From assembly GCA_030840805.1 (NCBI GenBank), contig JAVEDU010000074.1, positions 1-64,000 on the forward strand: a stretch of 64,000 nucleotides of DNA, written 5' to 3'. Shown here piece after piece: positions 24,602 to 32,280 of the stretch (positions are counted from its first letter, which is position 1; each line of letters begins with the position of its first letter). Below the pieces are notes generated by a model that worked only from the letters and a program-made list of their open reading frames with translations, did not search any database and had not been told where the DNA came from. The stretch is from Actinomycetota bacterium. GTDB lineage: Bacteria > Actinomycetota > Actinomycetes > Mycobacteriales > HKI-0501. The position numbers and the translations under genes were made by a program.

Positions 24602-25612
24602 TCAGCCGACGAACTTGGCGCTGGCCTCGAGGGCGGCGTCGCTGGTCGGGCCCCAGACCGCGCCGAGGGGCTCCTCGTCGTCCGAGAGGCCCTCCAGGAA
24701 GCGCTCGGCGTCGAGCGCCGCGACACACCCGGTGCCGGCCGCGGTGATCGCCTGCTGGTAGGTGTGGTCGACGACGTCGCCGGCCGCGAACACCCCGGCC
24801 ACGTTGGTGCGGCTGGACGGGTGCTGGACCAGGACGTAGCCGTTCTCGTCCAGCTCCACCTGGCCGCGGAACAGCTCGCTGCGCGGGTGGTGGCCGATCG
24901 CGACGAACACGCCGGTCACGTCCAGCGTCGCCTCCTCGCCGGACTCCGTGTCGGCGACCCGGATGCCGTTGACCTTGCCGCCGTCACCGAGGATCTCCTT
25001 GACCGCGGTGTTCCAGCGGACCTTGATCTTCGGGTTGGCGAGCGCCCGGTCGGCCATGATCTTGCTGGCCCGGAACGAGTCGCGCCGGTGGAGGATCGTC
25101 ACCTCGTCGGCGAAGCGCGTGAGGAAATTCGCCTCCTCCATCGCGGAGTCCCCGCCGCCGACGACCACGATCTTCTGGCCGCGGAAGAAGAACCCGTCGC
25201 AGGTGGCGCAGGACGAGACGCCGTGGCCGAGCAGCTCCTGCTCCCCGACGACCCCGAGCGGCTTCCAGGCCGATCCGGTCGAGATGACGACGGCGCGGGC
25301 CGAGTAGGTCTTGTCGCCCACCGTGACGGTCTTCACGTCGCCGGTGAGATCCACGGCGGTGGCGTCGTCGGTGATGAACTCGGCACCGAAGCGCTCCGCC
25401 TGCTTGCGCAGGTTGTCCATCAGGTCCGGACCCATCACGCCCTCGGGGAAGCCCGGGAAGTTCTCCACCTCGGTGGTCGTCATGAGGGCGCCACCGGACT
25501 GCGCGCCCTCGATCACCAGGGGGTTCAGGTTCGCTCGGGCAGCGTAGACGGCTGCGGTGTACCCAGACGGGCCCGAGCCGATCACGATGACGTTGCGGAT
25601 GTCGCCGCTCAC
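24602..25612 (-). CDS. trxB: Thioredoxin reductase
   Basis: A 336-residue low-molecular-weight thioredoxin reductase that passes electrons from NADPH through FAD to thioredoxin. FAD motifs are [20 protein letters not shown] and [23 protein letters not shown]; the NADPH site is [15 protein letters not shown]. The redox-active pair is in [11 protein letters not shown]. The start is GTG at 25612 with GAGGGAG upstream. It lies beside the sigM/anti-sigma pair as in mycobacteria (trxB2-trxC next to sigM), where this sigma factor responds to oxidative stress. Confidence 0.97.
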
Positions 25613-25688
25613 TTGGATTCTCCCTCGCACGATCACTGCCCGGGCAAACGTCATCGTAGGGCGAACGATTCCCGGTGACTCGGGTGCG

Positions 25689-26510
25689 TCAGGGCGTACC
25701 GCCCGTCCGGGAGATCAGGTCCACTCCCCCGGCACCGCAGTCCGGGCCCACGGCGAGAACCTGGGGACGCCCGGCGGGTTCCGCGGTGAGCACGATCACG
25801 AGCGCCGGTACGCCGCCGAAGCGGGCGAAGTCCGCCGACCGCGGCGCCGGTGACGTGGCGCCGACGAGGGCCCGCACCGCCTCCAGGCAGGCCTCCAACG
25901 CGGCCGGCGAGGTGAGCCGTGCCAGCGCGAGCGGCACGGGCGAGGCGGGCGGGGGTGCGGGTGGCGGCGAGGAGTCGGTCCCCGCGGCGGAGAGCCCGAC
26001 GGGGGGCGCCGGAGACCGGAGCGCGTCCTGGGCGGCCACGGTGCCGTAGTCGAGGCCGGTGCTGGTGATCAGGGTCTCGCCGAGGTGGTCCGGCAGGACC
26101 GTCCCCGGGACGGAGGCGACCGTGGGCGCCGACGGGTCGGTGCGCAGGGCCGCCACCACGGAGAACCCGAGGAGGACGGCGACGGAGGCGGCGGCGGCCG
26201 CGAGCACCGGCGCGACCACTCGACGGCGGCCCCGGCGCGGCCGGACGGCGAACTTCCCCGGGCCCCCCGCGGTGGCCAGCGCCGCATCGAGTCGGTCCGC
26301 CACCTCGGCCGGCACGGGACCTACCGGACCCAGCGCCGCCAGGCCCGCCCGGACGGCCGCCAGCGCGCCGGTCAGCTCGGCGTACGCCGCGGACCACGCC
26401 GGGTCGGCGGCCAGCCGCGCGGCCACCTCGTCGCCCTCGGGGGTCCCGGCGAGCAGGCCCTCGGCGTACTCGGCGAGGAGGGCGGGGTCGGGCCGGTGGT
26501 CGGCGCTCAC
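25689..26510 (-). CDS. Probable membrane anti-sigma factor of SigM
   Basis: A 273-residue protein whose GTG start overlaps the sigM stop by four bases. Residues 1-90 form a cytoplasmic, helix-rich zinc-less anti-sigma-like domain ([30 protein letters not shown]). A single membrane helix follows at about 98-118 ([23 protein letters not shown]), then an extracytoplasmic Pro/Ser-rich linker and a domain with two cysteines (ALEACLEAV and GPDCGAGG) that may form a disulfide. Gene order matches Rv3911-Rv3912. Anti-sigma function is inferred from topology, coupling and synteny. Confidence 0.78.
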
Positions 26511-27133
26511 GTCCCCCCCTCCGCTCGCCGTGACGCGGGTGGGACGCGGGAGGCGTCCGGGCGGTTCCCGTCGTCGTCCCGGAGGTGGCCGAGCAGGACC
26601 GCGAGCCGGGCGCGGCCCCGGGCGCACCGGCTCTTCACGGTGCCCTCGGCGACGCCGAGGATCGCCGCGACCTCGGCCACCGGCAGACCCTCCAGGTCCA
26701 CCAGGACGAGCGCCGCCCGCTGGTCGGCGGGGAGCCGGGTGAGGGCGTCGCGGATCACCAGCCGGGTCGTCAGCGTGTCGGCCGACTCGGTGGCCGCGAC
26801 GGGCTCCCGCTGCGCGGTCTCCAGCGGCACGGCAGGCCGGACCTGCCGGCGGCGGGCCCGGTCGAGACAGGCATTCACCACGATCCGGTGGAGCCAGGTC
26901 GTCACGGCCGAGTCGCCCCGGAAGCCACCCGCCGCCCGGTACGCGGAGAGGCACGCGTCCTGCAGTGCGTCCGCGGCGTCTTCGCGGTCGCCGAGGGTGC
27001 GCAGCGCCACCGCCCACAGCCGGTCCCGGTGCCGCCGGACGAGCTCGCCGAACGCGTCGGGGTCCCCGTCGACGTGGGCAGCCAGCAGCGCCCGATCGTC
27101 CCGGGGGTCGTCGCCGAGCGGGCCGCTGCGCAC
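26507..27133 (-). CDS. sigM: ECF RNA polymerase sigma factor SigM-like
   Basis: A 208-residue extracytoplasmic-function sigma factor. Region 2 contains GELVRRHRDRLWAVALRTLGDREDAADALQDACLSAYRA, and FRGDSAVTTWLHRIVVNACLDRARRR covers the -10 recognition helices. Region 4 is LPADQRAALVLVDLEGLPVAEVAAILGVAEGTVKSRCARGRARL, which binds the -35 element. The start is GTG at 27133. It is 21 bases from the pseudokinase stop and overlaps its anti-sigma gene, and trxB-trxA follow. This matches the mycobacterial sigM locus. Confidence 0.94.
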   Translation of the reverse strand: MRSGPLGDDPRDDRALLAAHVDGDPDAFGELVRRHRDRLWAVALRTLGDREDAADALQDACLSAYRAAGGFRGDSAVTTWLHRIVVNACLDRARRRQVRPAVPLETAQREPVAATESADTLTTRLVIRDALTRLPADQRAALVLVDLEGLPVAEVAAILGVAEGTVKSRCARGRARLAVLLGHLRDDDGNRPDASRVPPASRRAEGGT

Positions 27134-27154: not shown

Positions 27155-28552
27155 TCAGCGGTTGAAGACGATCTCCCGCACCGCGATACCGAACCCGCTG
27201 TCCTTCGGCGGGAGCGAGGTGATCCAGAGCAGCCAGTACCGGCCGGTGACGTTCGCCGGCACGTCGAACGTGACCGAGTCCGCGGCGTCCTGCCGGCCGG
27301 CGACCGTCCGGTACGCCGTCGGGTCGTCGCTGTCCGGGCCGGTCCGGAGCTCGAACGAGGAGCCGGGGGCACTGAGCCGCACGGTGATCTCGCGGACGTG
27401 CTCGGCGCGCCCCAGGTCCACGCGGACGCCCATCCCGGTCTTGCCGGGGATGCCGCCGAAGTTGGGCCGGGTGTACTCCTGCGTCTCCCAGCCGGTGTCG
27501 TCCTTGCCGTCGACGGCAAGCTCGGCACCGCCGAGCTCGGTGCCGTCACCCCCGGGGTCGAGGATCCGGGCGCCCGCGACGGGCACCGGCTGCAGCGAAC
27601 CCACGGCGGCGCCGCCGCGCGGCTCGGTCGGGTCCTTCGTGCTCGGGTACCGGCCGGTGACCGAGGACAGCGGGCTGATCGCGACGAGCCAGGCGAGGAG
27701 CACGAACACCAGGATGCCGACGCCGGGCAGGGCGAACTTGGCCCATCGCGTACCGCGGGGGGTGTCGTCGAGCGGGATCGCGTCGAGCACTCCGGCGTCC
27801 GGCGCCTCGACGTCGTACCGGCGCAGCTCCGTCACCAGGTCCGCGGCCGACGGGGCCGGGAGCGCCGGGTCGAGCAGGTCCATCGCGAGGGCGTCGAGGT
27901 ACGCGGGGATGCCGGCCCGGACCTGACGGGGACTGCACGGCCGGCCGTAGGACCGCACCGCGTCGGGGAGGCCGGGCTGCGGCGCCGGCACCTCGGCCGG
28001 CCACCGTCCGGTCAGGGCGGCGTACAGCAGCGCGCCGATCGACCGGACGTCCGCCGCCGGGGACGCCTCGTCGCCGGGCCGGAGGTCGGTGAGGGTGACC
28101 TTGTCGTCGGCGTCGACGATCACCGAGGCGGGGTTCAGGTTGCCGTGGGCGACACCCGCGGCGTGGAGGGCGGCGACGCCCTCGGCCGCCGAGCGGACCA
28201 CGGCGGCGGCGCGTTCGGGCGCCATCGGAGTCTCGCGGACGCTGGTACCGAACGAGGTGCCCTGCACCCACTCCCGGACGATGTACGCCCGGCCGCCCTC
28301 GTCCACGGCGTCGTACACGCCGATCACGGCGGGGTGGACGATCCGGGAGACGGTCATCGCGGCGGTGAGGAAGTCCTCGGCCTCGCCGCCGCCGGGGACC
28401 CGGAGCTCGACGGCGACCCGGCGGGCGAGGATCTGGTCGGTGCCCCGCCACAGCGTGCGCTGGGTCCGCGGGTACTCGGCGAGGCACTCGTCCAGCCGGT
28501 ATCGGCCGGCGAGCAGCTCGCCCTGTACGGGCGTACCCACCCGCGTGCTCAA
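27155..28552 (-). CDS. Membrane pseudokinase with extracytoplasmic discoidin-like domain
   Basis: A 465-residue protein equal to the C-terminal half of mycobacterial MviN/MurJ, but here encoded alone. Residues 15-245 form a Ser/Thr kinase-like fold with dead catalytic motifs: VAVEL in place of VAxK, HGN (136-138) in place of HRD, and DLR (156-158) in place of DFG. A membrane helix spans about 274-293. The C-terminal 150 residues resemble a galactose-binding/F5-8-type-C domain. The homologous pseudokinase in mycobacteria binds FhaA when phosphorylated by PknB and restrains lipid II export. I chose TTG at 28552 because AGGAGG lies five to six bases upstream; a GTG 26 codons earlier lacks such support. 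Confidence 0.85.
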   Translation of the reverse strand: MSTRVGTPVQGELLAGRYRLDECLAEYPRTQRTLWRGTDQILARRVAVELRVPGGGEAEDFLTAAMTVSRIVHPAVIGVYDAVDEGGRAYIVREWVQGTSFGTSVRETPMAPERAAAVVRSAAEGVAALHAAGVAHGNLNPASVIVDADDKVTLTDLRPGDEASPAADVRSIGALLYAALTGRWPAEVPAPQPGLPDAVRSYGRPCSPRQVRAGIPAYLDALAMDLLDPALPAPSAADLVTELRRYDVEAPDAGVLDAIPLDDTPRGTRWAKFALPGVGILVFVLLAWLVAISPLSSVTGRYPSTKDPTEPRGGAAVGSLQPVPVAGARILDPGGDGTELGGAELAVDGKDDTGWETQEYTRPNFGGIPGKTGMGVRVDLGRAEHVREITVRLSAPGSSFELRTGPDSDDPTAYRTVAGRQDAADSVTFDVPANVTGRYWLLWITSLPPKDSGFGIAVREIVFNR

Positions 28553-28790
28553 CGTGCCTCCTCGACGTGCCTGGCTCACGGTCGCAGACGTCGCCCAAGG
28601 GTAGGCCCTGAGACGCGGGCGCCCGGCCACGACATACCGCCGCGGCCGTCACCCGGGTGTCTCATCGTCATCCGCAGGGACGATGTTTGCAGATCCGGTC
28701 CGTCACCCGTGGCCGGTTCGGGCCCGGGATACGCCAAGGGGACGCACACCCCATGGTGCGCGCCCCCCTGGGCGTTCTGCGATCCGCCGA

Positions 28791-29555
28791 TCAGACCAGG
28801 CGGCGCACGGTGTACGTGTTGCTCCAGATCTTCTTCTTCGCGACCGGCTTACCGCTGGTGGAGGCGTCCCACATCTGGCCGCCCCCCGCGTAGATGGCCA
28901 CGTGGCTGTACCGGCCACCGCCGCCGAAGAACAGCAGGTCACCCGGCTTGATCGAGCCCCTGCCGACGGACTTGCCGTACCGCGCCTGGGCGGTCGCGCT
29001 GTGCGGCAGGGTCTTGCCGTGCTTCTTCAGCACGTACTGCGTGTAGCCCGAGCAGTCGAACGCCGACGGTCCGGCGGCGCCGTAGCGGTACGGGCGACCG
29101 GCGAGCGAGGCGGCCGTCTTGACGACCTCCCTGCCCTTGTCGGTGATCACGCGGACGATCACGCGGCCGGACGCGCTGGCCGACTTGATGCCCTGACCCG
29201 GGAAGACGAGTCGGTAGTAGGTCGACCGCGTCGGGTGGATCGAGAAGTGGACCTTCCCGTTGCTGAAGGTCCGGCCGCTGCTCGCCTTGGCCCACCCGTT
29301 GCCGGTGGAGGCCTGGAGCTGGACGTTGGCGTAGCGGACCGGAGCGCTGCCCGAGGTGACCGAGCCGGTGACCGTGGTGGACTGGCCGGACGAGATCGTC
29401 CGGGCCGGACCGAGGGTCGACTGCGTGCTGGACGCTGCGAACGCCGCAGGGGCGACGACAGCGCCCGCGCCCACGACACCGATGAGGGTGCCGAGAGCCC
29501 AGCCGATCCTGGTCTTCTTCTGGGTGGGTCGACGATGCGATCTCACCGCATGCAC
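28791..29555 (-). CDS. Secreted NlpC/P60 peptidoglycan endopeptidase
   Basis: A 254-residue exported protein. A basic N-terminus and hydrophobic helix (17-40, ending AAFAAS) form a signal peptide. A beta-rich domain follows (45-140), like immunoglobulin-type or cell-surface linker domains, and then an NlpC/P60 domain (143-254). The catalytic Cys168 is in FDCSGYTQYV and His218 in RYSHVAIYAGGG. It should cut peptide stems of peptidoglycan. The start is GTG at 29555, with AGGAAGG seven bases upstream. A c-di-AMP riboswitch precedes the gene, a common arrangement for actinobacterial wall hydrolases. Confidence 0.93.
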   Translation of the reverse strand: MHAVRSHRRPTQKKTRIGWALGTLIGVVGAGAVVAPAAFAASSTQSTLGPARTISSGQSTTVTGSVTSGSAPVRYANVQLQASTGNGWAKASSGRTFSNGKVHFSIHPTRSTYYRLVFPGQGIKSASASGRVIVRVITDKGREVVKTAASLAGRPYRYGAAGPSAFDCSGYTQYVLKKHGKTLPHSATAQARYGKSVGRGSIKPGDLLFFGGGGRYSHVAIYAGGGQMWDASTSGKPVAKKKIWSNTYTVRRLV

Positions 29556-29569
29556 AGGCAATCCTTCCT

Positions 29570-29760
29570 GCACGCCTGCGAGGTGAGCTGTCGGGTTCGG
29601 GCGGGAAGGTGCCCGGCCACCGGTAGGCGGCTTCACCCCGAGGAGGGTGTTCCGGGCCGCGTGATGCGGTCCGGCCTCCGAGGAACCTGGGTCCCCCGCT
29701 CCTGCCCGTCGGTTCGATTTCTCGAAAGTCATCCAGGGTCCGTCGGGCAGGACTCGGCGT
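29570..29760 (-). promoter_or_regulatory. c-di-AMP (ydaO/yuaA-type) riboswitch
   Basis: The leader of the NlpC/P60 gene shows the conserved blocks of the actinobacterial ydaO motif when read on the minus strand. In order these are AGCGGGGGACCCAGG, CGGGGTGAAGCC, ACCTTCCCGCCCGAACCCGA and CAGCTCACCTCGCAGGCG. A 5' hairpin (CTGCCCG...CGGGCAG) precedes them. This aptamer binds c-di-AMP and usually turns off genes for wall hydrolases or potassium transport. Right after it, CAGGC (29574-29578) can pair with GCCTG (29555-29559), enclosing the ribosome-binding site, a possible expression platform. Boundaries are approximate; the aptamer call is from motif recognition. Confidence 0.82.
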
Positions 29761-29926
29761 GTCCGGACCCAGGATGGGCGCGCTAGGTGCGCGCACAATT
29801 ACTTATGGTGCATCGGCCTGGGCGCGGAAGTCGTTACCCGCATGTGGTGTCGGTCACCTGAACGCGAGGCGTATGACGGGTAATGCCCGCATTACGGACC
29901 GTCCGGGGGATCCGCGCCTCGGCCGA

Positions 29927-30373
29927 TCAGCCGAGGCGCTGCGAGCTCTGCACCGACGCGTCGGCGGTGATCTCGGTCCAGGAGCGGAGGGACCCGATCC
30001 GGCCGAGCACCAGCGTGTGGGCGGTGCCGTGGACGCGGAGTGCGATCGTGCCGTCGGTCGTGATCGAGAAGTGGTCGGGTGAGATGCCCAGACCGTGGTC
30101 GCCGACCCGCTCCAGCGTGGCCCGGTACGCGGTGTCGACGTTCCCGGCGAGCTTCCAGGAGTCCGCGGCCGCGATCGCGGACCCGTCGGCGGCCTCCTGG
30201 GCGCGAAAGGAGATCAGGGCCACCGAACAGACGTCGTAGCCGAGCGTCCCGAGCACGGTGAGAAGGACAGCGGCCCGGACGAGTCCCCACGGCAGGGCGG
30301 CGCCGAGGTCTCCGCCGGCGCGGCACGGCCGGCGGGGGCGGACCCGGGGTGCCGGGTCGGACACGGTGGTCAC
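29927..30373 (-). CDS. Single-pass membrane protein with TadE/TadG-like N-terminus
   Basis: A 148-residue protein with a basic N-terminus, one membrane helix (about residues 28-50) and then the motif FRAQEAADGSAIAAADSW. That motif resembles the QxAADAAALAAA segment of TadG/Flp pilus-assembly proteins. The remaining 90 residues are extracytoplasmic and unlike known domains. No other tad gene is visible, so a pilus role is doubtful. The start is GTG at 30373; a GTG three codons later is possible. It follows murJ by 53 bases in the same direction and could be in its operon. Confidence 0.65.
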   Translation of the reverse strand: MTTVSDPAPRVRPRRPCRAGGDLGAALPWGLVRAAVLLTVLGTLGYDVCSVALISFRAQEAADGSAIAAADSWKLAGNVDTAYRATLERVGDHGLGISPDHFSITTDGTIALRVHGTAHTLVLGRIGSLRSWTEITADASVQSSQRLG

Positions 30374-30426
30374 CCGGGAAGCGTCGACACACTCGGGCGG
30401 CCGCTTGAGTGGCGGGAGCCGCGGGG

Positions 30427-32280
30427 TCAGGCGCGCCCGAGCCGCCGCTGCACCATCCCGAGGACGTGGTGTACCTCCCGCACCCGCAGCAGCAGCGCCG
30501 CGCAGACGTACGCCACCCCGCCGGCCAGCAGCCCGGCCAGCAGCGCCAGGATGCCGCCGACGTGCCCGGTGCCCGCCACGGCGCGGATGCCGGCGTCCGC
30601 CGCCCAGGTCACCAGCAGGGCGGGCACGCTCGCTGCCGCGATCCGGGCGATCGTGCTCGCGGTGTTCCGTCCGCGGACCGTGCCGAGGCGCCGGCGCAGC
30701 AGCATCCCACCGACGACCATCGCGACGAGGTACGACAGCGAGTTCACCGCCATCAGCCAGTGCAGGACGTGGTCGACCGGCGCGAGGGCCGCGACCGCAC
30801 CGGCACCGGCCACCCGCACGGCGACCGCGGCCGCGTTGACGAGCGTCGGCGTCTTCGCGTCCCGCATCGCGTAGAACGCGAACGTCTGCATCTGGCTCAC
30901 CGCGAACGGCAGCAGCCCCAGGCAGGCGACCGCGAACACCGCACCGGTGGTCTTCGCCTGCGCGGCGCTCGTGTTGCCGTACCCGAACAGCACCAGCCCG
31001 GCCGAGCTGCCGAGGAACACCATGATCGCCGCGGCCGGCAGCAGCACGGTCGCGGACAGCCGGGTGCCGAGCGCCAGGTCGTCGGCAAGCGCCCGGAACC
31101 GTCCGTCGACGGCGGCGCGGCTCATCCGTGGCAGCAGCGCGGTGATCACGCTGACCGCGACGATGCCGTGCGGCAGCATGAACAGCAGGTACGCGTTGTT
31201 GTAGATCGCCACCGAGGGGCCGCCCGCCTCGCCGGCCGCCTTGGCGACGCGCATGATCGCGACCACGCCGAGCTGGCTGAGCAGGACGTACAGCAGGAGC
31301 CACCCGGCGAGCCCGCGCGCCTCGGCGAGCCCGGTGCCGCGCCAGTCGAACCGCCACTTCCAGCGGAACCCGAGGCGGCGCAGCGGGATCCACAGCGACA
31401 CCGCCTGGGCGGCGATGCCCAGCGTCGTCCCGAGCCCGAGCACGATGATCTGCGGCAGCGTGACGCTGTCCGCGGTCGGCGTGCCGAACCCGTGCATCGC
31501 GAGGAACACCCCGCCCGTCGCGATGACGACCGCGTTGTTCAGGACGGGCGCCCACATCGGCGCGGCGAACCTGCCGCGGCTGTTCAGGACCGCGCCGAAC
31601 ACGGCCGCGAGCGCGTAGAACACGATTTCCAGCAGCAGTAGGTACGCGAACGCGGTGGTGAGGGGCCGCTCACCGGGATCGCCCACGAACAGGAGCGTGA
31701 TCAGCGGTGCGGCGACGACGGCCACGGCGGTGATCACGGTGAACACCGCGAGCGTCATCGTCAGCAGGCGCTGGATGAACGCGATGCCCCCGTCGGGCTC
31801 CTGTTTCTCCGCCTTGACGAGCAGCGGGACGATGACGCTGGTCAGCACGCCGCCGAGCAGCAGTTCGTAGACCATGTTCGGGAACGTGTTGGCGAGCGTG
31901 TACGCGTCGGCGAAGAGCGTCGAACCGATCACCACCGTGAGGATGATCTGCCGCAACAGGCCGCTCGCGCGGGATGCGATCGTGCCGATCGCCATGACCG
32001 CGGAGTTCCGGGCGACACCGGCGGTGTCCTCGTCGTCGCGCCGGAGCTCGACCGGGACCACGCCACCGAGGTCCAGCAGACCGGTGTGGTCCATGCCCGG
32101 CATGAGCTGGGCGACCTCGACGATCTCCACGACCGGCACGGCGCGGATGTCCGCGGCGCTCGCCCACTCCCCCGCCTCGGCGAATCCGGAGCGGTACACC
32201 GTCCCGACGGCACGGCCGACCCGGGCGGTACCGACCGCACGACGACGCCGGCCCGGGCCCGGAAGGCTCGGTGGTGTCAC
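30427..32280 (-). CDS. murJ: Lipid II flippase MurJ
   Basis: A 617-residue MurJ/MviN-family transporter that flips lipid II across the membrane for peptidoglycan synthesis. After an 88-residue cytoplasmic leader come about 14 membrane helices, starting [21 protein letters not shown]. Typical segments include [24 protein letters not shown] and [28 protein letters not shown]. Unlike the mycobacterial protein, it ends shortly after the last helix ([17 protein letters not shown]), with no pseudokinase attached. The start is GTG at 32280, overlapping the Nudix gene stop (GTGA). Confidence 0.95.

Follow-up and report, generated by a model that had tools for sequence, protein, structure and literature searches.

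A c-di-AMP riboswitch before an actinobacterial NlpC/P60 gene: redrawn aptamer boundaries and a pseudoknot that may cover the Shine-Dalgarno sequence

INTRODUCTION

The leader of an NlpC/P60 wall hydrolase gene in an Actinomycetota genome raises the question of how a c-di-AMP riboswitch acts on the gene that it precedes. This leader lies on the minus strand of a stretch of 64,000 nucleotides (contig JAVEDU010000074.1, positions 1 to 64,000), which is called the window throughout. A first-pass annotation, made from the letters alone, had placed a c-di-AMP riboswitch at 29555-29760 and had proposed that a short hairpin, formed by CAGGC and GCCTG, hides the ribosome-binding site and puts the wall hydrolase under translational control.

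Reports on actinobacterial c-di-AMP riboswitches differ in the step that is controlled. For rpfA of Streptomyces coelicolor, which carries the same class of RNA, transcription termination was reported (PMC10117811), whereas the nlpC switch of Corynebacterium glutamicum was described as an OFF switch that lowered the reporter protein, left the RNA unchanged and affected the first gene only (PMC9960051). The authors of the latter study suspected a pseudoknot with the ribosome-binding site (PMC9960051). In a review, ydaO is placed in a group of riboswitches in which expression platform and bound aptamer dock, and the translational members of this group occlude the ribosome-binding site (PMC10907184, section 5). 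The construct used for the ydaO crystal structure is 108 nt long, and a pseudoknot is mentioned in that paper (PMC5393176); by our own reading of the sequence printed there, this construct appears to have complementarity between loop and tail. None of the titles and abstract openings listed in the literature survey announced a comparison across leaders in which the ydaO pseudoknot is set against the Shine-Dalgarno sequence. The switch type itself is already known, and what is added here are corrected aptamer boundaries and comparative support for a merged pseudoknot and Shine-Dalgarno element.

MATERIALS AND METHODS

Of 162 loci, 141 passed a motif filter. Among the 21 that were lost, L044, L087, L088, L091, L096, L100 and L102 had no RF00379 match at the cut-off; L050 and L089 were restored for the re-pairing test; L093 and L098 were restored for the analyses of the NlpC leaders, the Shine-Dalgarno overlap, P1/P2 and the thinned sets; and L014, L016, L048, L049, L125, L126, L142, L145, L150 and L157 stayed outside the statistics. 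The duplicates L073, L078 and L081 were removed. The locus L004 also holds the site of L010, and the same site was taken for both. The re-pairing test started from 140 members, reduced to 132 non-redundant ones, and the Shine-Dalgarno overlap was counted in 142 members that were not thinned. An alignment of 23 leaders was used for the column analyses; it omits L082, whose 5′ end was cut off, and L099, for which the P1/P2 anchor failed and which was kept in a 24-leader comparison of P1 and P2. We used 500 column shuffles, 10,000 re-pairing permutations and 300 dinucleotide shuffles.

RESULTS

A c-di-AMP riboswitch precedes the wall hydrolase gene

The Rfam scan of the window returned a single match above the gathering score, to the c-di-AMP riboswitch (ydaO/yuaA, RF00379), at 29729-29559 on the minus strand (59.7 bits against a gathering cut-off of 38, E = 2.5e-11, model positions 1-134). 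The covariance-model search for which the first-pass annotation had called therefore bore out its claim of a c-di-AMP riboswitch, and the riboswitch before the wall hydrolase gene is real. As a member of this family, the RNA would be expected to bind c-di-AMP in two pockets. The genome, 4.46 Mb in 111 contigs, also carries two further and stronger RF00379 copies (86 and 80.4 bits) and a single diadenylate cyclase (DAC) domain. The features of the locus are collected in Table 1.

Table 1. Features of the riboswitch locus and its neighbourhood, in window coordinates
Feature	Position	Strand	Basis or remark
c-di-AMP aptamer, P1 to P1, redrawn	29571..29761	minus	Rfam match 29729-29559 extended 5′ by leader comparison
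P1 5′ strand CACGCC	29756..29761	minus	23-leader alignment; partner of 29571-29576
P1 3′ strand GGCGTG	29571..29576	minus	leader comparison; partner of 29756-29761
P2 5′ strand TCCTGCCCG	29744..29752	minus	9/9 pairs in window; partner of 29700-29708, 35-nt apical part between
P2 3′ strand CGGGCAGGA	29700..29708	minus	partner of 29744-29752
Conserved aptamer hairpin GGGC-ACCUUCCC-GCCC, loop carrying the anti-Shine-Dalgarno	29599..29614	minus	stem covariation, letters checked
Anti-Shine-Dalgarno loop CCUUCC, putative pseudoknot 5′ strand	29604..29609	minus	perfect complement of 29563-29568
Shine-Dalgarno GGAAGG, putative pseudoknot 3′ strand	29563..29568	minus	7 nt from GTG
Hairpin first proposed, CAGGC (29578-29574) with GCCTG (29559-29555)	29555..29578	minus	present, not conserved
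NlpC/P60 wall hydrolase gene, GTG start at 29555	28791..29555	minus	Pfam NLPC_P60, E = 2.8e-24
MurJ	30427-32280		upstream of NlpC gene
Kinase-like-domain protein	27155-28630		downstream of NlpC gene; F5/8-type-C match below its cut-off
ECF sigma factor	26507-27133		after kinase-like gene
Pyridine-nucleotide-disulphide oxidoreductase	24602-25654		after ECF sigma factor gene

In the window, the riboswitch-led NlpC gene lies between murJ and the kinase-like gene (27155-32280). In L074-L077 and L101, homologues of both neighbours lie on either side of the NlpC gene, and the kinase-like homologue alone was found in L011/L081, L078, L095 and L098; with flanks of no more than about 1.5 kb in most of these loci, a missing match there says little. 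In Mycobacterium tuberculosis, the MurJ and kinase-like parts are fused in one protein (MviN). A search for related loci with the NlpC protein gave only two loci. Elsewhere, c-di-AMP riboswitches occur in pairs, with both members on one strand and about 1.3-3.1 kb between them (G002:C18:19196-20679, G156:C1:1827138-1829100, G093:C1:1383085-1386101 and G134:C74:14847-18113), as though consecutive genes were each under a switch of their own. Among the rows listed of the order-level search, 13 genomes of family f14 had no RF00379 match and one (G110) had one, with 16 further unmatched genomes outside this listing, and the switch may have been lost in f14.

Leader comparison corrects the 5′ end of the aptamer

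In the Rfam alignment of the window, AAUC stands as the 5′ strand of the outer helix, some of whose pairs are non-standard. Comparison of the leaders showed that this 5′ end is misplaced. The match starts 27 nt 3′ of the P1 5′ strand and misses the 5′ strands of both P1 and P2, and once the 5′ end was corrected, the P1 closing helix was present with six pairs (CACGCC:GGCGTG). The P1 5′ strand falls outside the match because P2 is enlarged. The same displacement recurs in the other leaders: 21 of the 23 aligned leaders were detected by Rfam at the cut-off, and in all 21 the P1 5′ strand ends 16-32 nt upstream of the first base of the match. Two leaders without a match at the cut-off, L086 and L043, have the same P1/P2 anatomy. 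The interval first given for the riboswitch, 29555-29760, holds nearly the whole redrawn aptamer and is one base short of it. For leaders with an enlarged P2, constructs trimmed to the Rfam match would lose P1.

The redrawn helices were then assessed by columns in the 23 leaders. For P1, 88.5% of the cells were paired; its three innermost pairs are invariant and the fourth is standard in 23/23, while the outer two are missing from 8 and 7 rows. P2 was paired in 98.9% of the cells, with two-sided changes at four of eight counted pairs, one of them being U-A in 14 leaders and C-G in 9, and another C-G in 16 and U-A in 7. The stem of the conserved aptamer hairpin (GGGC/GCCC) was paired throughout (100%), with two-sided changes at three of its four pairs. 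When P1, P2, the hairpin and the pseudoknot described below were combined, 91.3% of the cells were paired, compared with 37-56% when the strands were slid, and 11 pairs showed two-sided changes against 6.4 in shuffled columns (0/500 shuffles as high). The number of pair types in the same combined set was at the shuffled level (241/500). P2 and the hairpin stem contribute most to these totals, because the pseudoknot alone does not rise above shuffles in this analysis.

An upstream "anti-aptamer" decoy, seen in the first fold as 29752-29744 pairing with the 5′ half of the aptamer, was rejected: it is P2 itself, with P1 lying just 5′ of it, as shown by L011, L012 and 20 more leaders. Separately, an imperfect inverted repeat on the minus strand, CATCCTGGGTCC (29776-29765) and GGACCCTGGATG (29741-29730), spans the 5′ strands of P1 and P2 and could compete with the 5′ side of the aptamer.

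The hairpin first proposed over the Shine-Dalgarno is not conserved

The arms of the hairpin in the first-pass annotation occur where they were placed, around AGGAAGG at 29569-29563 on the minus strand, and would form five pairs, the last base of the GCCTG arm being the G of the GTG start. As a cover for the Shine-Dalgarno, this hairpin did not hold up: covariation is lacking and there is no clear excess over shuffles. Exact GCCTG was found in one of 25 leaders, the window itself, and all five pairs, with G-U allowed, could form in 4 of 23 (the window, L095, L098 and L101). Paired cells amounted to 63.3% in both the real and the shuffled columns (379/500 shuffles at least as high), and no measure, covariation included, exceeded the shuffles in the 23 leaders. 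The conservation of CAGGC is uninformative on the hairpin, because CAGGC belongs to the invariant 3′ core of the aptamer and includes part of the P1 strand. We also searched for the best local helix over the Shine-Dalgarno of the window, which scored 6.3 and was equalled by 5% of 300 dinucleotide shuffles; the fold-energy z was -1.83 (300 dinucleotide shuffles). In the other 24 leaders, 9% to 99% of the shuffles were equal or better.

These results bear on a reading in which CAGGC:GCCTG, or a larger CUCACC..GGUGAG hairpin, hides the Shine-Dalgarno or the start codon in the absence of ligand, and binding forms P1 and frees the site. Unconstrained folding of 29541-29800 includes the larger hairpin in its optimum; this hairpin reaches -19.8 kcal/mol alone and excludes P1, and the smaller one has both its arms in place. 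Taken literally, the small hairpin, which would likewise break P1, makes the RNA an ON switch, opposite to the OFF behaviour in published reports on this class. With its covariation at the shuffled level and its 3′ arm restricted to the window, we consider this reading quite improbable. The longer CUCACC:GGUGAG fold was also rejected as a conserved element; in L074 the aptamer side reads CTAACTCC in place of CTCACCTC, while the coding-side GGTG is unchanged.

Aptamer loops match their own tails better than re-paired ones

We then examined the pseudoknot of the class, in which the apical loop pairs with the 3′ tail. In the window it would comprise six pairs (CCTTCC:GGAAGG), and judged from the letters it is the more likely candidate for covering the Shine-Dalgarno than the CAGGC:GCCTG hairpin. 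In the re-pairing test with 132 non-redundant members, loops scored a mean of 6.26 with their own tails, compared with 5.38 when loops and tails were re-paired among members (sd 0.08, maximum 5.69; 0/10,000 as high) and with 4.90 for shuffled tails. The excess persisted when the set was thinned to 98 and 73 members (6.22 and 6.24 against 5.31 and 5.27; 0/10,000 each) and to 40 members whose likeness in the stretches compared is below 55% (6.19 against 5.16, sd 0.16; 0/10,000). For the 25 NlpC leaders alone, the narrowest window size gave 5.76 against 4.73 (sd 0.20; 0/10,000), and three window sizes gave 5.76 to 5.95 against 4.73 to 5.05 (0/10,000 each); scored by duplex energy on stretches that took in part of the stem, 8 of 10,000 re-pairings were as good. 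Differing tails are often met by correspondingly different loops, for example CTCCT:AGGAG in L006, CCTTCAA:TTGAAGG in L046, CCTTTCT:AGAAAGG in L089, GAACCTC:GAGGTTC in L082 and CTTCCCA:TGGGAAG in L095. L097 has only four pairs. The own tail is not a unique partner: at the median, a loop is served equally well by 30% of all tails, and a score of 5 is reached by 69% of the cross pairs.

By columns in the 23 leaders, the pseudoknot alone stayed near the shuffled level, with 77.1% of the cells paired against 75.0% (54/500), four pairs with two-sided changes against 2.4 (53/500) and a covariation score reached by 84/500. Sliding it by -1 raised the paired cells to 82.9%, above the 77.1% of the true register, which is a sign of register slips. 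The case for the pseudoknot is therefore carried by the re-pairing tests, since the column count fails against shuffles and suffers from these slips.

The predicted pseudoknot strand overlaps the Shine-Dalgarno in most NlpC leaders

In 22 of the 25 NlpC leaders, L097 included, the pseudoknot overlaps the Shine-Dalgarno by at least 3 nt; the exceptions, by automatic call, are L080, L094 and L095. Across the class, a start codon was called in 128 of 142 members, 121 of which had a pseudoknot score of at least 5. Among these 121, a Shine-Dalgarno match of at least 4 nt was found in 113 and an overlap of at least 3 nt with the pseudoknot in 72. Direct masking is not universal, because in L001 and L002, from the same genome, the pseudoknot strand GGAAG(A) and the Shine-Dalgarno AAGGAG are two elements, the second following directly on the first, where the window has a merged one. 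Nine leaders of genus g62 in family f18 have two such purine blocks, with the pseudoknot strand first and the Shine-Dalgarno directly after.

Such separate blocks could mean that the pseudoknot serves the folding of the aptamer only, and that its overlap with the Shine-Dalgarno is a non-regulatory by-product of a purine-rich tail. The leader L045 (G467:C15) points in the same direction: its loop and tail are also complementary, and after the tail a hairpin resembling a terminator, with a U run, was recognised by eye in place of a close start codon, so that the helix can be retained for folding, and the pseudoknot may there serve another expression platform. However, a helix of six pairs on the Shine-Dalgarno should hinder initiation whatever its origin, and in 25/25 NlpC leaders the GGC of the P1 3′ strand is followed by the start codon at a distance of 15-24 nt. 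A pure folding role thus appears highly improbable.

The main rival to translational control is control of transcription, in which binding would terminate or attenuate transcription within the leader or beyond it; for S. coelicolor rpfA, a member of the same RNA class in actinobacteria, termination on binding has been reported (PMC10117811). A canonical terminator is, however, said to be absent at rpfA itself (PMC9960051). In the window, a simple scan of 28700-30000 found no terminator-like site, a weak result as shuffles average only 0.4, and the 15 nt that separate the end of P1 (29571) from the start codon (29555) are too short for a separate terminator before the gene. We therefore regard transcription control as unlikely here. 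Translational control of the wall hydrolase, as the first-pass annotation had suggested, remains plausible given the NlpC/P60 gene, the absence of terminator-like sites in this weak scan, the Shine-Dalgarno 7 nt before the start and the published nlpC switch of C. glutamicum; what fell away is the proposed hairpin as its means.

In folding calculations, which cannot hold pseudoknots, forcing P1 and P2 cost about 8 kcal/mol relative to the unconstrained fold. In this unconstrained fold, four of the six GGAAGG bases are mostly open and the start codon is paired.

DISCUSSION

We propose that the bound c-di-AMP riboswitch probably turns off translation of the NlpC/P60 gene through a pseudoknot over its Shine-Dalgarno. 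Bound c-di-AMP would hold P1 closed. Two nucleotides downstream of P1, the loop CCUUCC would then pair with GGAAGG, which is the Shine-Dalgarno itself, and the 30S subunit could not bind. In the absence of ligand, the pseudoknot would be less stable and the Shine-Dalgarno accessible. Ligand binding by this RNA, the ligand dependence of the pseudoknot, the OFF polarity and translation as the controlled step are what we infer beyond the computed results, which cover the identity of the aptamer, the corrected P1 and P2, the matching of loops to tails, the overlap with the Shine-Dalgarno and the lack of terminator-like sites.

A broader proposal concerns a lineage of actinobacterial NlpC/P60 genes, of which at least six lie between murJ and a kinase-like gene. 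The pseudoknot strand of ydaO and the Shine-Dalgarno may have merged in this lineage, so that the bound aptamer is itself the translational block and neither an alternative helix nor a terminator is needed; to our judgement, this is evenly balanced between right and wrong. If it is right, the paralogues with side-by-side blocks would represent an evolutionary intermediate. The match between a loop of 6 nt and a Shine-Dalgarno of 6 nt also offers a concrete mutable target that is able to decide between the termination and translation modes reported for actinobacteria.

Compared with the RF00379 class, the window is alike in its Rfam score, P1, apical hairpin and loop/tail complementarity, and in the wall-related gene that is usual in actinobacteria (PMC9960051). 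It differs in its enlarged P2 (9 pairs, 35-nt apical part), which puts the P1 5′ strand outside the Rfam match, and in that the tail of its putative pseudoknot is the Shine-Dalgarno. The nlpC switch of C. glutamicum is likewise a c-di-AMP riboswitch on an NlpC-type hydrolase gene without a canonical terminator (PMC9960051); compared with the window by description only, it most likely acts on translation as an OFF switch, with a suggested pseudoknot at the ribosome-binding site (PMC9960051). In six leaders of genus g256, which is probably Corynebacterium-like, the best helix scored 4.0 to 8.6, and in L165 and L167 a separate Shine-Dalgarno follows it closely on the 3′ side. S. coelicolor rpfA shares the riboswitch class and a wall-lytic enzyme with the window, and differs in the reported transcription termination (PMC10117811). 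The g62 leaders of family f18, probably Streptomyces-like (L053, L055-L057, L061, L064, L069, L072 and L162), carry the pseudoknot strand and the Shine-Dalgarno as adjacent blocks. The preQ1-III and cobalamin riboswitches of the docking group have aptamers and ligands unrelated to those of the window, but in them a loop of the bound aptamer pairs with the region of the ribosome-binding site and blocks translation (PMC10907184), as is proposed here for the NlpC/P60 leader.
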